From Bacteroidia bacterium (GTDB taxonomy: Bacteria; Bacteroidota; Bacteroidia; Bacteroidales; Azobacteroidaceae): 64,000 nucleotides of DNA. This document shows positions 5,451 through 28,568 of this stretch, one piece after another (within the stretch, counting starts at the first letter, position 1; each line of letters begins with the position of its first letter). The position numbers and the translations under genes are program-made. The stretch covers positions 14,421-78,420 of the forward strand of contig BNXY01000006.1 in NCBI GenBank assembly GCA_025999935.1. Direction: 5' to 3'. The notes under the pieces are model-generated. The model was not told the DNA's origin. It made no database searches and worked only from the letters and a program-made list of their open reading frames with translations.

Positions 5451-5459
5451 CATTACGCG

Positions 5460-6611
5460 ATGAAACCCATACAAATGGTGGATTTAACTTCCCAATATGC
5501 ACGGATACAAGCTGAAATGGACAAAGCCGTTTTGGAAGTTATCCGTTCGGGAAAATACATCAATGGGGATGCAGTACAGGCATTTGCTGCCGAACTTTCG
5601 CAACAGGTCGGCGCCAATTACGCGATTCCTTGCGCCAACGGAACCGATGCGCTCCAAATCGCCTTGATGGCTTTGGATTTGCAGCCGGGAGATGAGGTAA
5701 TTGTTCCGGCTTTCAATTATGTGGCAAGCGCAGAGGCTGTTGCCTTGTTGAAACTGAAACCGGTTTTGGTCGATGTCAATCCGCAGACGTTTAATGTAGA
5801 TGTAGATAAAATAGCAGATGCCATCTCTCCAAAAACAAAAGCCATTATTCCGGTGCACCTTTTCGGACAGTCCGCCGATATGGAACCCATCCTGAAAATC
5901 GCCAATGAAAACGGGCTTTTTGTCGTAGAAGACAATGCCCAAAGCATCGGTTCGATTTATTCTTTTTCTGACGGAGAACAAAAACAAACCGGAACCATCG
6001 GCGATATCGGAACATTGTCATTTTTTCCAACTAAAAACTTGGGCTGCTATGGCGACGGCGGGGCGATGCTGACCAATAATGAAACATTGGCAAAAAAACT
6101 CAAAATAATTGCCGCACACGGACAATCTAAAAAATATACACACGAATTGCTTGGCTGCAATTCTCGTTTAGATACGCTTCAAGCAGCCATTTTAAAAGTA
6201 AAATTGCCTTATTTGGAATCTTATAGCATGGCACGGCAAAAAGTTGCAGCCCAATATAATGAAGGCTTAAAAACATTGACTAATTTGTTGGAAACCCCTT
6301 GCCACATTCCCAATTCAACGCATGTATATAATCAATACACCTTGAAAATAAAGCACAATCGGCGGGATGATTTGCAAAAATACCTGAAAGAAAAAGGCGT
6401 TCCGACCATGGTTTATTATCCCCTATCCTTACAGCAACAACCTGCTTTTTGTCATTGCGGGCTTGACCGGCAATCCCCCATTATACGTATCGGAAGTGAT
6501 TTAAGCGAAACGGAACAACTTTGCCAATCCGTATTGTCTTTGCCGATGCATACGGAATTGGACGAGGAGCAAATTCGGTATATTATTGAACAAATTATGA
6601 AATATGAATAA
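5460..6611 (+). CDS. DegT/DnrJ/EryC1/StrS-family sugar aminotransferase (WbpE/WlbC-like)
   Basis: A 383-residue PLP-dependent nucleotide-sugar aminotransferase. The N-terminus ([19 protein letters not shown]), the substrate loop [12 protein letters not shown] and the PLP-lysine region [16 protein letters not shown] (Lys near residue 194) are all typical of the family. The nearest relatives by feel are WbpE/WlbC, which aminate UDP-2-acetamido-3-oxo-glucuronate; the following gene is the matching acetyltransferase, with which it overlaps by 8 bases. From residue 331 a stretch encoded by a palindromic repeat arm (reading [10 protein letters not shown]) sits just before the conserved VLSLPMH motif, where relatives have an unrelated loop. 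The frame stays open, so the enzyme may still be functional. The oxidoreductase and dehydrogenase steps of such a pathway are not in this window. Confidence 0.88.
6450..6478. repeat. Palindromic repeat arm inside the aminotransferase gene
   Basis: The 29 bases begin TGTCATTGCGGGCTTGACC and form one self-complementary arm of the repeat family seen complete at 24167-24247. It is read in frame as [10 protein letters not shown] at residues 331-340 of the aminotransferase. The stem pairs TTGCGGG with CCGGCAA, imperfectly. Confidence 0.75.
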
Positions 6612-22353: not shown

Positions 22354-22387
22354 TGCCGTGAATTATAAATTAAAAAAATATCTACTT

Positions 22388-23257
22388 ATGAAACGTTGGT
22401 TATTTTTGATTGCGCTACTGATGCCTATAGGGGTGTATTCGCAGATAAACATTCAGATGGGCGCCCAAAAACCGGTAAAGAATGAGGTTATCGATACCGG
22501 GGTGATTCGTGTTTTTTATGAATTATTGTCGGTTGCCGATCCGGAAAAGCCGGATAAAACAACTAAAGATTATTTGGTTTTGGAAATCGGGGAAAAAGGT
22601 ATTTCCCGCTTTTACAGTGACAATAAACGCCGGCAGGATTCAATCATGGCCGAATTGATTAAAATAAATCCTACTCGGATTGATATGGGAAAAGCCCTGA
22701 AAGATAACGGTATTTCATCGGGTGGCGATCAACGGGAAGTTTTTAAAAATTATCCTTCCGGAAAAATTATGGTAACCGACCATATTGTTTCGTCCGATTA
22801 TCTTTATGAAGAAAATTTGAATGATATTCAATGGCAAATCGGCACAGACACGGTAACGATTTTGTCCTATTTGTGTCAGAAAGCAACGGCCGATTTTCGC
22901 GGAAGGCATTACGAAGCTTGGTTTGCCCCTGATTTACCCATCAACGACGGGCCTTGGAAATTCATGGGCTTGCCCGGATTGATTCTGTCCATTCAAGATG
23001 TTGATAAACACTATCAATTTCAGGCGATTGGATTGGAAAATTCGACACTTCCGGTAAATTTTCCGAAAAAAGATTATTTGAAAACTTCCCGCAAAGAAGT
23101 GGAAAAAATTCAAAAGCGATTTATCGAAGACCCCATGGGATTTATTACCGCTTCCATGCCGGGGACTAATATCCAAATAAAAATGATGGATGAAACCGGC
23201 AGTGAAAAAACCGGCAGTGAAATTAAATTTCCGTATAACCCCATAGAATTAGAATAA
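22388..23257 (+). CDS. GLPGLI-family secreted protein (copy 1)
   Basis: A 289-residue exported protein. The ATG at 22388 opens a signal peptide (MKRWLFLIALLMPIGVYSQ); an upstream GTG at 22358 would add ten residues and is less likely. The family-defining motif GPWKFMGLPGLI lies near residue 190, preceded by the usual YEAWFAPDLPI and a CQKATADFRGR segment. GLPGLI proteins are restricted largely to Bacteroidetes and their function is not known. It is the first of two tandem family members and is followed after 1 base by the second. The shared cluster with a TonB-receptor-like barrel and a BlaI/BlaR1-like pair suggests an envelope-stress or ligand-response system. Confidence 0.88.
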   Translation: MKRWLFLIALLMPIGVYSQINIQMGAQKPVKNEVIDTGVIRVFYELLSVADPEKPDKTTKDYLVLEIGEKGISRFYSDNKRRQDSIMAELIKINPTRIDMGKALKDNGISSGGDQREVFKNYPSGKIMVTDHIVSSDYLYEENLNDIQWQIGTDTVTILSYLCQKATADFRGRHYEAWFAPDLPINDGPWKFMGLPGLILSIQDVDKHYQFQAIGLENSTLPVNFPKKDYLKTSRKEVEKIQKRFIEDPMGFITASMPGTNIQIKMMDETGSEKTGSEIKFPYNPIELE

Positions 23258-23258
23258 A

Positions 23259-24146
23259 ATGAAAAAAATTGTATTATCAATCTTTTTTGCCACGGTGGTT
23301 TATCCGGCATTTACACAGGATGTTGTTGTAGTTGGTTCCGCTACTGCCGGCCGGAAAGGAGAAGAAATGGGAAAAGAATACTTGGACATGGCGACTGTCA
23401 GGGTTTATTATTATTTTACCCAAAAGGAAAAGGCGAATGACAAATCGTTTGTTCGTCACGACACAATGACTTTAGATATCGGCGCTCAAATGTCGCATTA
23501 TTACGATATGACCCGGCCAAAAAAGGATGCTGAATCTCCGCTTAATCAATTAGACCCAAACAGGATTCAAACGATTTCGGTTTTAAAAGGCAACAGTGCA
23601 GATGAATTTGATAATTTTCTTGGAGAAAAACATGAACAGAATTATTTTGACGGGACTTCGGAAAAAATTTATAAAAACCGCATCAGCGGCCGGCTTACGC
23701 TTATTGATAATGCAAATGGTCTTTACCGGTGCGACGATCCGGTCGGTTTGCTTAACTGGGAAATTACGTCGGATACCGCAACCATTCTTGATTACAGTTG
23801 CCAAAAAGCGAAAATTCGTTTTCGTGGAAGGGATTATGAGGCTTGGTTTGCGCCGGAGATTCCCATTAATGACGGCCCTTGGAAGTTTTTCGGCTTGCCG
23901 GGATTGATTGTCAAAGTAAATGATGCAGAGGGATTGGTCGCTTTTGAATGTGTGGGTTTACAAAATTTGGATACGCCTTATGAAATCGGAATTCCCCAGG
24001 GGAAATACATTCAATGCAATCGCAAAGAATTGGAGAAAGTCATCAGAGAACGAGGCGCATCCATGCGTGTTTTTGTCAATGGCGGCAATGTTGTCATTGC
24101 AGGTAAAAGTTTAAGTCCTTCCTTTAAGTTTTTGGAATTAGAATGA
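23259..24146 (+). CDS. GLPGLI-family secreted protein (copy 2)
   Basis: A 295-residue paralogue of the preceding gene. A signal peptide (about residues 1-19) is followed by the shared core: CQKAKIRFRGRDYEAWFAP and the motif GPWKFFGLPGLI near residue 210. The N-terminal 130 residues differ clearly from copy 1, so the duplication is not recent. The stop overlaps the start of the barrel gene by 4 bases (ATGA), indicating coupled translation. Function unknown. Confidence 0.88.
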   Translation: MKKIVLSIFFATVVYPAFTQDVVVVGSATAGRKGEEMGKEYLDMATVRVYYYFTQKEKANDKSFVRHDTMTLDIGAQMSHYYDMTRPKKDAESPLNQLDPNRIQTISVLKGNSADEFDNFLGEKHEQNYFDGTSEKIYKNRISGRLTLIDNANGLYRCDDPVGLLNWEITSDTATILDYSCQKAKIRFRGRDYEAWFAPEIPINDGPWKFFGLPGLIVKVNDAEGLVAFECVGLQNLDTPYEIGIPQGKYIQCNRKELEKVIRERGASMRVFVNGGNVVIAGKSLSPSFKFLELE

Positions 24147-26884
24147 AAAAAAAATTATCTGTCCTCTGTCATTGCGGACTTGATCCGCAATCTCATGATG
24201 GCCGCTTAATGATTGTAAGGGGATTGCGGGTCAAGCCCGCAATGACAATTTTTCTATTATTGATGTTTTCCATCGTTTCCAGTGCTCAGACTGTAATTCA
24301 GGGAACGGTTAAGGATGTGCAGGATAATAAGGGAGTCAATGGGATTAATGTGATGCTACAAGAACCCGGCAATTCGGCCATATCCGCTTTTGCCATGACG
24401 GATATCAATGGAAAATACAAATTGGAATACAAAGGCGAAAAAGATTCCGTCACGATTTCAGCATCCGGATTCAATATTCAAAAGCAACTAAAAACCGTTG
24501 CTCGAAAAAATCAGACAGTAGATTTTGCGGTTTCATTTGAATCGATTTCCCTGAAAGAGGTGAAAATCACGCCTCCGAAAATCAGACAGCGCGGCGATAC
24601 CATCAATTATTTGGTGGATGGTTTTATCGACAAAAACGACCGAACCATCGGCGATGTTTTGAAGAAATTGCCGGGAATTGATGTCAAGGAAAGCGGTCAG
24701 ATACTTTATCAGAATGAACCCATCAATAAAATGTATGTTGAGGGTTTGGATTTGTTGGGCGGACGTTACGGGATTGCAACGAACAACATTCAGGCGAAAG
24801 ATGTGCAAAGTGTGGAAGTGCTCGAAAATCATCAACCGATAAAGGCCTTGAAAGACCGGGTTTTGTCGGAACAGGCGGCGCTTAATCTGAAGTTGAAGGA
24901 TTCGGCCAAGGGAACGATTACTTCCAACGGACTGCTGGGCGCAGGCGCTTCGCCGCTTCTTTTGGCAGGGGAAATAACCGGCATGTATTTTACGAAAGGC
25001 CGGCAGAATATTACGACTTACAAGGGAAATAATACCGGAAACGATGTCAGTCGCGACTTAAATTCATTTTATTCTAATGCTGCCAGTCAGATGTCGGGCG
25101 GAGGTTTGCTTAGTGTTCAATCGCCGTCGTCGCCGTCAATCAGCCAGAAACGTTATTTGTTTAATCGCGCCAATGCTTTCACTTTCAATAATCTATGGAA
25201 ATTGAAAAGCGATTATCAACTGAATGCCAATATCCACTATCTGAACGACCGGATTGATAAAAGCAGTTTAGACCACACGGAATATTATTTGCCGGGAGAT
25301 AATTTGGTGCGGATTGAAGAAAAAATTAATTCCCGGCTTTACAGCAATCGTGCGGATGCCGAATTTCAATTGTCCGGAAATAAAGACAAATTCTACCTGA
25401 ACAATTTACTGAAAATAACCGGAGCGTGGGACAATGAGCGCGGTAACGCCATCGGTGCGGACAGCGTTCGCCAACGCTTGGATAAACCGAATTACGGGAT
25501 TAATAATACTTTTAACTGGGTTAAGAATTACGAAAAAACCGCTTTGAATATTTCTTCTTTCAATGGATTTTCAACATCGCCCCATACTTTAACGGTCAAT
25601 CCCGTGCTCTACGACAACCTGTTTGAGCAGTCAACGAGTGCGGAAGCGATGCGGCAGTCCGTGACTTTGAATAATTTCCGTTCCATCACTACGGCATCGG
25701 CAGGTTATGACAAAGGCAAATTGAGTCAGAATTACGCCTTGAGTTTTCGGGCGGATTTGCAGCATTTAAATTCAGATTTGCAGGGAGTTGCGGGTCAAGC
25801 CGGCAATGACAAGTTGAATACTGTCCCCGATTCTTTGCGGAACGATTTGCAATGGAACAAATTGGAATGGCTTTTTACGCCCCGCTATACCTATATATAT
25901 AATGATTGGCGGTTAAGTTTTTCTTTACCGTTCAATTACACCGCTTTGTTTATCGACGACCAAGTGAGAAAGAAGGAAGAAAACTATTCTCGCCTGTATT
26001 TCAATCCCTCGTTCATGGTTCAATACAAAATGTCGGCTTATTGGGATATGTATGCAAATGCAAGTTATTCAAACGGTATGGGAGGTATCAGCAACGAATA
26101 TGCCGGATACATCATGCGTTCTTACCGCAATTTGATGCGCAATGAAGGGGATTTGTACGAAACGAAATCACAGAGTTACAGCATTAACCTGAATTACCGG
26201 AATCCCATCAAATCTGTATTCGGAAATGCCCGCGTTGCTTATTCCAATAGCAAAGCAAATTTGCTGTATGGTTACGATTTTGACGGAATCTTGCAGGTAC
26301 AGAAATCATTGGCCCTTCCAAACAGGAGAGAAGGTATTTCTTCGGAATTTAACTTGAATAAAACGGTCGATGTCCTTGCATCCACCATCCGATTGGGCGG
26401 AGCCTATTCCACATCCACTTCTTCGCAATTGGTTCAGGGAGAAATTATCAAATACGGCAGCGAACGCTATTCGCTCACTCCGGCCATAAACACGAAACTT
26501 CAATCCTGGTCAAGTTTTTCTTACAGTATTACTTTCAGCGAGAGCCAAACACGATTAAAATCCGGAAACAATGATTTAGATCCCATCCGAACGGTTTCTC
26601 AACGCGCCAATTTCAATCTTTTTCCCTTGAAAGGACTGACTGTCAATTTGGAATACGAATATTTCTACAACAATGCCATCGCTTCCGGAAGCCGCACCAT
26701 GTCGTTCGGCGATGTCGGAGTAAAATATAAATGGAATAAGCTGGAATTTTTGTTGAATTACACCAATATTTTCAATTCCAAACAATATATTTCGGCATCG
26801 TATAGCGACATCAGTTCTTATTATTATGCCTACGACTTGCGTTCGGCGGAAGTTTTATTAAGTGTTCGATTTAAAATAAAATAA
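24143..26884 (+). CDS. TonB-receptor-like outer-membrane beta-barrel with interrupted signal peptide
   Basis: A 913-residue outer-membrane protein. A carboxypeptidase-regulatory-like domain (about residues 50-130, VIQGTVKDVQDNKGVNGINV) precedes a plug-like domain (LPGIDVKESGQILYQNEPI, MYVEGLDLLGGRYG) and a long barrel ending FKIK. No SusD partner is present. The N-terminus is remarkable: residues 9-35 are encoded by an 81-base palindromic repeat (24167-24247). Joining residues 1-8 to residue 36 onward restores an ordinary signal peptide ending SSAQ, so the repeat was inserted in frame into signal codons. An internal ATG at 24209 would give a basic-plus-hydrophobic start that could still serve as a signal. 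A second repeat arm encodes residues near 549-557. The GLPGLI neighbours suggest a shared envelope function. Confidence 0.85.
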   Translation: MKKKLSVLCHCGLDPQSHDGRLMIVRGLRVKPAMTIFLLLMFSIVSSAQTVIQGTVKDVQDNKGVNGINVMLQEPGNSAISAFAMTDINGKYKLEYKGEKDSVTISASGFNIQKQLKTVARKNQTVDFAVSFESISLKEVKITPPKIRQRGDTINYLVDGFIDKNDRTIGDVLKKLPGIDVKESGQILYQNEPINKMYVEGLDLLGGRYGIATNNIQAKDVQSVEVLENHQPIKALKDRVLSEQAALNLKLKDSAKGTITSNGLLGAGASPLLLAGEITGMYFTKGRQNITTYKGNNTGNDVSRDLNSFYSNAASQMSGGGLLSVQSPSSPSISQKRYLFNRANAFTFNNLWKLKSDYQLNANIHYLNDRIDKSSLDHTEYYLPGDNLVRIEEKINSRLYSNRADAEFQLSGNKDKFYLNNLLKITGAWDNERGNAIGADSVRQRLDKPNYGINNTFNWVKNYEKTALNISSFNGFSTSPHTLTVNPVLYDNLFEQSTSAEAMRQSVTLNNFRSITTASAGYDKGKLSQNYALSFRADLQHLNSDLQGVAGQAGNDKLNTVPDSLRNDLQWNKLEWLFTPRYTYIYNDWRLSFSLPFNYTALFIDDQVRKKEENYSRLYFNPSFMVQYKMSAYWDMYANASYSNGMGGISNEYAGYIMRSYRNLMRNEGDLYETKSQSYSINLNYRNPIKSVFGNARVAYSNSKANLLYGYDFDGILQVQKSLALPNRREGISSEFNLNKTVDVLASTIRLGGAYSTSTSSQLVQGEIIKYGSERYSLTPAINTKLQSWSSFSYSITFSESQTRLKSGNNDLDPIRTVSQRANFNLFPLKGLTVNLEYEYFYNNAIASGSRTMSFGDVGVKYKWNKLEFLLNYTNIFNSKQYISASYSDISSYYYAYDLRSAEVLLSVRFKIK
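24167..24247. repeat. Complete 81-base palindromic element inside signal-peptide codons
   Basis: Left arm 24167-24192 and right arm 24222-24247 are reverse complements over 26 bases with two mismatches; each arm is itself a hairpin of the form TTGCGGGTCAAGCCCGCAA. The length is exactly 27 codons and no stop is introduced in the host frame. Other arms of the family lie at 6450, 25788 and 28543. Confidence 0.85.
25788..25811. repeat. Palindromic repeat arm inside the barrel codons
   Basis: The bases TTGCGGGTCAAGCCGGCAAT and four following form one arm of the 24167 family, read in frame as VAGQAGND in a region expected to be a surface loop of the barrel. Confidence 0.7.
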
Positions 26885-27274: not shown

Positions 27275-28531
27275 ATGGAAAACTTTATTTTCTATCTGCT
27301 TAAATCCGGAATCTGGATTACCGTTTTCTGGTTGATTTACCGGCTGTTTCTTCGGAAAGAAACTTTCTTTCAATTCAACCGCTACTTCTTGTTGGCCGGT
27401 TTACCGGCATCCTTTGCCTTGGCATTGTGTCAATACCGCTACCCTGTCCACCTGAATCTCCAATTAATGATTGCGCCCGAAGCGGTTGCCGCACAACCGG
27501 CGCCAACGGGTTTGCTTATCGGATGGCCGGTCGTTTTTGTTGCGATTTATGTTGTAGGCATGTTTGTTGTATTGATGCATCATCTCATTGGATTAAACAA
27601 AATCGGCCGTTTGATACGGAAGCAAAAATCAAGTATCCATACGAAACCGCCGGTTATTGAAATACCGCAGATTCAATCTGCCTTTTCTTTTTTCGGATAT
27701 GTGTTTATGGATAAAACTGCAAACCTTTCCGAGGTGGAAAAGCGATTGATTCTGGAACACGAAACGGCGCATATTGAACAACGTCACTGGATGGATTTGC
27801 TGCTGTCTCAAATGGTGTGCGCCTTGCAATGGTTCAATCCCTTTGTCTGGTTGTACCGGAGCGCCGTTAAACAGAATCACGAATTTTTGGCCGACCGTTC
27901 GGTTATCCAAAAAGGAAATTCCCAAGCGGTTTACCATGCCGCATTAATCAATTACACATTAAAAGCGCCTGTTTTTGCTTTAGCAAACGCATTTGCAACT
28001 CACAAATTTAAACGAATCAACATGATGAAAAAGAATGTTTCCAAACCGGCGAAAAAATTCGCCGCATTGTTATTAATCCCCGCATTAGCCGTCTTCTTAT
28101 GGGCTTTTGCCAAACCGGAGTATAAATATGCCATCTCCGTTCATTCGGAACCGGAAATGGTAGCTGTTAAAGATACGATTATCATTACCACGGATAAAGA
28201 GCCGGAAGGGATAACCGTTATCACAAAAGGAAAAGTGAAGAATGTAAAAACAATTGGCAGTACAAAAACAGAGGAACGAGTTGTAAATTCGGATTCAGTT
28301 GTTGTTATTGGATACGGGTCAATGAAAAAAATGACCGTAACATCAACAAATACCACACATTCAGGCAAAGACCCGCTTTTTATTGTGGATGGCAAAGTAG
28401 TCTCTTCTATAGATAAGTTAAATGAAAAAGACATTCATTCAATTTCCGTACTGAAAGATGGGGCAGCCACATCGATATATGGAGATGCGGGGAAAAACGG
28501 TGTTATCTTGATTACAACGAAAGCCGATTAA
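27275..28531 (+). CDS. BlaR1-like M56 metallopeptidase with C-terminal TonB-plug-like domain
   Basis: A 418-residue inner-membrane peptidase. The first 110 residues hold three hydrophobic segments. The gluzincin motif HETAH lies near residue 165, with downstream NHEFLADRSVI containing the third ligand. A fourth membrane segment lies near residues 262-278 (FAALLLIPALAVFLWAFAK). In place of the penicillin-binding sensor of true BlaR1, the periplasmic tail is short and ends in a plug-like segment (VVVIGYG near 325, then LFIVDGKVV, ISVLKDGAATSIYGDAG and GVILITTK). That text is the same as the start of SusC/TonB receptor plugs. Such fusions occur in Bacteroidetes but their ligand is unknown. It is the last gene of the cluster. 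Confidence 0.85.
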   Translation: MENFIFYLLKSGIWITVFWLIYRLFLRKETFFQFNRYFLLAGLPASFALALCQYRYPVHLNLQLMIAPEAVAAQPAPTGLLIGWPVVFVAIYVVGMFVVLMHHLIGLNKIGRLIRKQKSSIHTKPPVIEIPQIQSAFSFFGYVFMDKTANLSEVEKRLILEHETAHIEQRHWMDLLLSQMVCALQWFNPFVWLYRSAVKQNHEFLADRSVIQKGNSQAVYHAALINYTLKAPVFALANAFATHKFKRINMMKKNVSKPAKKFAALLLIPALAVFLWAFAKPEYKYAISVHSEPEMVAVKDTIIITTDKEPEGITVITKGKVKNVKTIGSTKTEERVVNSDSVVVIGYGSMKKMTVTSTNTTHSGKDPLFIVDGKVVSSIDKLNEKDIHSISVLKDGAATSIYGDAGKNGVILITTKAD

Positions 28532-28542
28532 CGACATTTTGG

Positions 28543-28568
28543 GATGGCAGGTCAAGCCCGCCATGACA
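28543..28568. repeat. Intergenic arm of the palindromic repeat family
   Basis: Twenty-six bases including GGTCAAGCCCGCCATGACA, 11 bases after the BlaR1-like gene. The arm is a diverged version of the 24167 arms (GGC for TGC at the stem). It may also act as a weak hairpin terminator. Confidence 0.6.

Follow-up and report, generated by a model that had tools for sequence, protein, structure and literature searches.

An 81-bp palindrome lies in frame within the signal peptide of an outer-membrane-type gene from a member of the Azobacteroidaceae (Bacteroidales), which raises the questions of what the palindrome is, how it came to lie there, and whether the protein could still be exported. The locus was examined in a window of 64,000 nucleotides, this being the whole stretch of DNA that was analysed (contig BNXY01000006.1). 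The host gene (24143..26884, plus strand) is an open reading frame (ORF) encoding 913 amino acids with an N-terminal CarboxypepD_reg domain; the Pfam families PF13620 and PF13715 were matched at residues 52-141, directly after the signal peptide. Among the Pfam families, no barrel or plug family was matched in the host protein, and its domain and length point to an outer-membrane (TonB-receptor-like) type. It was noted that two tandem Porph_ging-type genes lie directly upstream in the window (22358-24146), and that the stop codon of the second overlaps the ATG of the host gene at 24143.

The palindrome occupies positions 24167..24247, with no strand of its own, and is read on the gene strand as CHCGLDPQSHDGRLMIVRGLRVKPAMT. 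It corresponds to codons 9-35 of the ORF and encodes 27 residues without a stop codon. The two arms, at 24167-24192 and 24222-24247, each span 26 nt; they are complementary at 24/26 positions (92%) and lie 29 nt apart. An earlier sequence-only reading of this DNA had described an 81-base palindrome with two 26-base arms and two mismatches that spans 27 codons with no stop, and these coordinates were exact and agreed with the ORF translation. From the sequence, its folding, alignment with other copies, and homologues that lack the insert, the element was annotated as a REPIN, an inverted doublet of REP units. The 5' REP (24167..24195, plus strand) is read as CHCGLDPQS and possesses a TGTC tag, the stem ATTGCGGA / TCCGCAAT, the loop CTTGA, and the tail CTC. 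It is followed by a spacer (24196..24218, no strand assigned), whose ends are approximate and were placed by alignment of copies, and by the 3' REP (24219..24247, minus strand), which lies in inverse orientation and reads GLRVKPAMT on the gene strand. As DNA, the 81 bases folded with a z score of -6.3, with 0/200 dinucleotide shuffles as good, and the mRNA stretch 24100-24300 was predicted to form a stable RNA hairpin (folding z -4.1). No known RNA families were matched in the window at gathering score, and no obvious target-site duplication was encountered on by-eye inspection of the aligned copies.

Homologues of the N-terminus were also examined; the sequence-only reading had interpreted the palindrome as an in-frame insertion and proposed this alignment. 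In a genus-wide search of 38 genomes, the closest full-length homologues were those of G053, G030, G031, and G047 (71%, 70%, 62%, and 60% identity, respectively). All four lack the 27 residues and possess an ordinary short signal peptide, with N-termini such as MKYAFIIGLLLSFSTLSYSQ and similar, followed by the homologous mature protein; the 60 bases preceding each of them resemble the end of the window's upstream gene. Nine more distant homologues from a first relatives search (at most 40% full-length identity) were also aligned and all lack the residues, as do the more distant homologues of G039 and G044. Because the four closest full-length homologues lack it, 24167-24247 is an in-frame insertion, and the proposed empty site is borne out. 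With the insert removed, the N-terminus becomes MKKKLSVL followed by IFLLLMFSIVSSAQ, and this rejoined form (MKKKLSVLIFLLLMFSIVSSAQ) matches the signal-peptide design of the homologues. A REP-like stretch at 25786-25811 of the same gene (3 mismatches) was considered as a second insertion and rejected; the homologues carry similar residues there, and the loop exceeds that of G053 and G030 by just 2 residues.

The inserted sequence belongs to a dispersed repeat family. The REP core CATTGCGGRYTTGAYCCGCAAT was found at 47 sites in the window's genome (G000) at up to 3 mismatches compared to 0 for the reversed pattern, and the right arm of the palindrome had 5 matches in the window at up to 3 mismatches (0.00 expected). 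This family of 47 sites, together with the homologues lacking the 27 residues, refutes the alternative that these residues are native and the palindrome coincidental, which we regard as hardly credible; no support for it was found, and only the weaker match at 25786-25811 does look native. The copies occur as single REPs or doublets, with motifs in common among the doublet spacers. Elsewhere in the window, one single REP (6450..6475, plus strand) is read in frame as CHCGLDRQS inside a DegT/DnrJ/EryC1 aminotransferase ORF (about 5451-6608), where it is spanned by Pfam PF01041 and forms an insertion relative to PDB 3nyu, and another (28543..28568, minus strand) lies just past the stop codon of the ORF 27275-28531.

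At up to 2 mismatches, the core was found in 16/23 genomes of the genus compared to 0/16 other genomes of the order, and G006 and G010, two further REP-rich genomes of the genus, contained about 200 sites each. In a phylum sample of 395 genomes, 32 had at least one match and at least 10 were recorded only in G000 (43) and G400 (25); many of the other matches in this sample were the variant CATTCCGG...CCGGAAT. Confinement to one genus, which the counts within the order suggest, is contradicted by G400, which belongs to another family of the order and holds 25 sites. In named genomes, the REP-plus-tail pattern was found in 68 stretches, mostly from records of 'Bacteroidia bacterium PG1894_40' and Candidatus Symbiothrix, the latter placed in the Bacteroidales; we take these REP-carrying genomes to come from termite guts and protist symbionts. 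It was noted that 5/68 stretches (L160, L162, L180, L190, and L200) came from records titled as Lachnospiraceae, Oscillospiraceae, or Clostridiales MAGs, and that their flanking ORFs look clostridial, in our judgement. These represent either phylum crossing in a common habitat or mixed bins.

The anatomy of the element fits the CGTC-tagged REP superfamily. The portions of PMC3733652 consulted here describe REPs with a CGTC tag that is often altered to TGTC or CCTC, a stem of 8-9 bp whose first bases are AT, a loop of 4-5 nt, and tag-outward dimers with no dedicated transposase, across five phyla including Bacteroidetes. The focal element carries TGTC at both outer ends, and the other copies inspected carry TGTC or CGTC apart from a few divergent ones. 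Its stem (ATTGCGGG / CCCGCAAT) is 8 bp and begins with AT as in the superfamily, and its 5-nt loop CTTGA falls within the superfamily's range; the same portions describe an 8-bp stem with a 5-nt loop for the CGTC-2 family. The focal element and 11 further in-ORF doublets are tag-outward, with 3 the opposite way round. The tails here are mostly CCC or CTC, and those of the superfamily are mostly, not all, CCA in the portions of PMC3733652 consulted.

Mobilization by RAYT genes was considered and rejected, as the REP core (up to 5 mismatches) lay beside 0/25 RAYT-type loci in 21 distinct places, a scan that left out the weakest own-genome match (C34), and the numbers of REPs and RAYTs were uncorrelated by eye. 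Y1_Tnp genes had 7 matches in G000 and were present in 24/39 genomes; G007 and G030 contained 34 and 28 REPs with no Y1_Tnp match, and G001 and G033 possessed 3-4 Y1_Tnp matches with no REPs. The GTAG tag of RAYT-mobilised REPs was absent, the tag here being TGTC or CGTC.

An intriguing question is what the insertion has done to export. The original start and n-region codons, MKKKLSVL (24143..24166, plus strand), have counterparts in the similar short n-regions of the homologues, and the hydrophobic core and cleavage region IFLLLMFSIVSSAQ (24248..24289, plus strand) is undamaged. The insert was placed at the border between the two, leaving the core and the cleavage site between SSA and Q intact, with a hydrophobic window of 3.13 with the insert compared to 3.16 without it. 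Initiation at 24143 would give an n-region of 35 residues with a net charge of +5 (+3 without the insert). An in-frame ATG in the spacer (24209..24211, plus strand) is a candidate start that would give an n-region of 13 residues with a net charge of +3 and a signal peptide, MIVRGLRVKPAMT-IFLLLMFSIVSSA, of 26 residues up to the predicted cleavage point. A second in-frame ATG within the REP arm (24242..24244, plus strand; the M of PAMT) would leave an n-region of 2 residues with a net charge of 0. Among these candidates, 24209 would yield the most ordinary signal-peptide length. The sequence-only reading had expected that a signal peptide should not tolerate an insert at this site; that expectation gives way to a core that is whole, to the positive charge that was added, and to the repetition of similar placements in related genomes.

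That the insertion broke export and the gene is decaying is a very unlikely outcome, although a start at 24143 would lengthen the n-region from a few residues to 35, since no stop interrupts the other 878 codons, the core has stayed intact, and other exported-type proteins of three genomes carry similar insertions. Of the two outcomes offered by the sequence-only reading, loss of export and an internal start, the former is the less likely. We think that export probably continues, with initiation at 24143 or 24209.

The internal ATGs also bear on whether the element may act outside the protein. Under this alternative, translation would start at 24209 or 24242, leaving most of the palindrome 5' untranslated, and the hairpin would regulate translation or mRNA stability. 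The presence of both in-frame ATGs, the 26-residue signal peptide obtained from 24209, and the stable RNA hairpin at 24100-24300 are consistent with it, and the consulted portions of PMC3733652 state that many N-terminal REPs may be extragenic, with starts misannotated. However, the frame from the original start is open across the whole element, a start at 24242 would leave no basic residue, and several other REPINs have an apparent original n-region upstream in frame. In L369, MKIYSNF precedes the element and VLIILLMFALSVQSQ follows it, an arrangement shared with the focal gene, and in L368 the upstream n-region is MLLKKKLNNRSS. We consider an action outside the protein possible, and on balance improbable.

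We assessed the reading frames of all 98 in-ORF REPs from G000, G006, and G010, with each ORF taken to open at the first ATG, GTG, or TTG that follows a stop, rather than being a curated gene, and with the G010 stretches picked for holding REPs. A REP was scored as N-terminal and pre-core when it lay at most 70 residues from the ORF start and preceded a hydrophobic core (Kyte-Doolittle window of at least 2.0). With both arms of one REPIN counted as separate rows, this position was occupied by 16/25 REPs in the GLRVKPAMT frame compared to 3/73 in the other frames (p = 1.5e-9), an association that was found post hoc with cut-offs fixed after the data had been seen. Lookalikes were collapsed because G010 possesses a paralogous family sharing a GLRVKPAMT-type start, and the counts became 11/19 compared to 3/70 (p = 5.6e-7); G006 and G010 alone, which were not used to form the idea, gave 8/15 compared to 1/40 after the same collapsing (p = 4e-5). 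When only REPs within 70 amino acids of an ORF start were considered, the pre-core copies comprised 16/21 in the GLRVKPAMT frame and 3/19 in the others (p = 1.6e-4). The association kept its direction at four other hydrophobicity cut-offs, with 18 vs 6 cases at 1.5, 16 vs 4 at 1.8, 16 vs 3 at 2.2, and 11 vs 3 at 2.5.

Three N-terminal cases in the other frames also precede a hydrophobic core, and 5/21 N-terminal GLRVKPAMT copies have no core following. Twelve tag-outward REPINs each lie within a single ORF, and 6 of them precede an N-terminal hydrophobic core. The downstream arm of these pre-core REPINs is read as GLRVKPAMT in 6/6 cases; in the other 6 it is read as IAGQARND (n = 4) or GLRVKPAMT (n = 2). 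In G000, pre-core GLRVKPAMT copies lie in the focal gene, in L026 (a small lipoprotein-like ORF), and in L103 (an OEP efflux protein), and G006 and G010 hold more. It was noted that L026 and L134, orthologous lipoprotein-like ORFs from two genomes, have GLRVKPAMT (or ELRVKPAMT) immediately ahead of the hydrophobic core. The paralogous exported-type proteins of G010 (L351, L354, L356, and L387) carry tandem REP-derived n-region units (GLRVKPAMTSSPVRICSAMT...), which lengthen the n-region before the core LFTIICLLV.

The account that we favor, and hold to be probable, is that a CGTC-superfamily REPIN inserted in frame and stop-free between the n-region and the hydrophobic core, that the gene is very probably still expressed and its product exported, and that the GLRVKPAMT arm behaves like a portable n-region. 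Expression and export would be very probable because the core and cleavage region are whole and GLRVKPAMT puts basic residues before the core. The frame bias suggests that the 3' arm read as GLRVKPAMT may supply a basic signal-peptide n-region, in which case export would probably be kept, and that copies inserted at export signals in this frame may survive selection better than those in other frames. One point against this account is that a strong hairpin near the start could lower translation.

REPs were also encountered inside many genes. In G000, 34/45 REP units fall within ORFs of 100 codons or more and 11/45 outside, a set from which two window sites were left out. The corresponding in-ORF counts were 24/59 in the G006 stretches (with a further 4 at an ORF edge) and 40/71 in the G010 stretches (4 at an edge). 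By the same rule, ORFs cover 0.88 of the G006 and 0.83 of the G010 sequence examined; REPs are therefore not enriched in genes, and the in-gene share of G000 is merely nearer to chance than the share usually ascribed to REPs. Because four of the six REP frames are open, a REP in an open frame within an ORF is by itself no evidence. A Pfam family was matched in 29/30 REP-bearing ORFs of G000, with the REP inside the matched stretch in 11, including ArgS, ketoacyl synthase, dihydrolipoyl dehydrogenase, MurG, an AcrB-type pump, and a nucleotide-sugar dehydrogenase. Whole REPINs lie between the domains of Mfd, MutS2, and a hybrid histidine kinase. Some near-start copies are probably upstream of the true start (the alpha-L-fucosidase, GH97, and SufB ORFs).

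Orthologue alignments placed the ArgS, Mfd, and Lpd copies in variable-length loops, and REP-like residues were found in the same ArgS and Mfd loops of G005. The net length gain in ArgS and Lpd was smaller than a REP, so that a simple 30-bp insertion is unproven for single REPs. Exact insert lengths sought from PDB alignments were ambiguous because the REPs occupy loops of variable length, and one query had no match at the cut-off. It was noted that in two species the same gene of C11-peptidase type (L024 in G000, L318 in G006) has a REP whose site and frame coincide, through either shared ancestry or a repeated hit. The REPs of the amidohydrolase-type orthologues L019 (G000) and L390 (G010) occupy one position but are read in different frames, and this suggests that a single tolerant site was hit independently. 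The ArgS and Mfd loops of G002, G004, and G010 (L242 to L246 and L267 to L275) hold other repeat-like insertions, such as LPLPWGEGAGG in the G002 Mfd loop, as if several repeat families were using the same tolerant loops.

The copies in the loops of ArgS, Mfd, and Lpd are what would be predicted by tolerance, and thus by the alternative that the REPIN is a neutral hitchhiker. In that case the element would be selfish DNA, the n-region would be free to vary in length, and GLRVKPAMT would be merely harmless, the arm giving nothing useful; intragenic REPs are interpreted likewise in the consulted portions of PMC3733652. However, pure tolerance by itself predicts no bias toward one of four frames, and the bias is strong. 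If only basic n-regions were tolerated, the outcome would be almost indistinguishable, and here the neutral explanation shades into the favored account of a retained export signal. We regard neutrality as a serious contender that falls somewhat short of probable.

A bolder proposal, which we consider rather unlikely, is that the element is a portable front end for signal peptides, such that landing before a core in that frame rebuilds or replaces the export signal and the host keeps the element for this reason. The 3' arm, (M)GLRVKPAMT, contains an ATG, has a second just before it in some copies, and carries two basic residues. If this proposal were true, a selfish palindrome would be remodeling the exported proteins of these gut symbionts as it spread through them, and non-exported proteins may even become exported.

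In the open-access papers searched, we found neither the REP peptides nor the REP DNA of this element, and nothing relevant on palindromes in termite or Bacteroidales symbionts, on REPs at signal peptides, or on their insertion in frame. The locus is a genuine in-frame insertion of a REPIN, a known class of repeat, in a host that has been little studied, and the frame preference at signal peptides looks unreported. These results add a Bacteroidales group that includes the gut symbionts Candidatus Symbiothrix to the hosts of protein-coding palindromes, for which Rickettsia is the best-known example. They also offer a possible reason for the persistence of some intragenic copies, in that one frame makes a plausible signal-peptide n-region. 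If the n-region reading is right, the frame and position of the palindromes would be predictable from the rules of protein export, and many odd N-termini in these genomes would be explained.

Several known systems resemble this element in part. The RAYT-associated REPINs treated in the consulted portions of PMC3116915 and PMC6006769 are likewise inverted REP doublets dispersed through a genome, but the REP core here was near none of the 21 RAYT-type places scanned. A 168-bp Yersinia MITE in YPO1552, a single locus in the consulted part of PMC2229807, is likewise a small mobile sequence that forms part of a predicted signal peptide; there the MITE's own hydrophobic residues contribute, whereas in the present gene the core is resident and a basic n-region stands before it. 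The CGTC superfamily, as covered in the consulted portions of PMC3733652, shares the tag, AT-stem, loop, tag-outward dimers, and some intragenic copies, including copies in DNA-repair genes, whose counterparts here are Mfd, MutS2, and a DnaX-like ORF. Most REPs are placed between genes in those portions, in contrast to the 34/45 found inside ORFs here, and they make no mention of a preferred frame at signal peptides. The comparison with Rickettsia palindromes drawn in the sequence-only reading was sound in kind, as RPE-4 and RPE-6 of R. conorii belong to the same superfamily and lie within genes, in frame (consulted portions of PMC3733652 and PMC2229807), the likeness drawn here being one of class. 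The feature characteristic of the Rickettsia elements, palindromes inserted in frame in conserved protein genes, is present here in another phylum.
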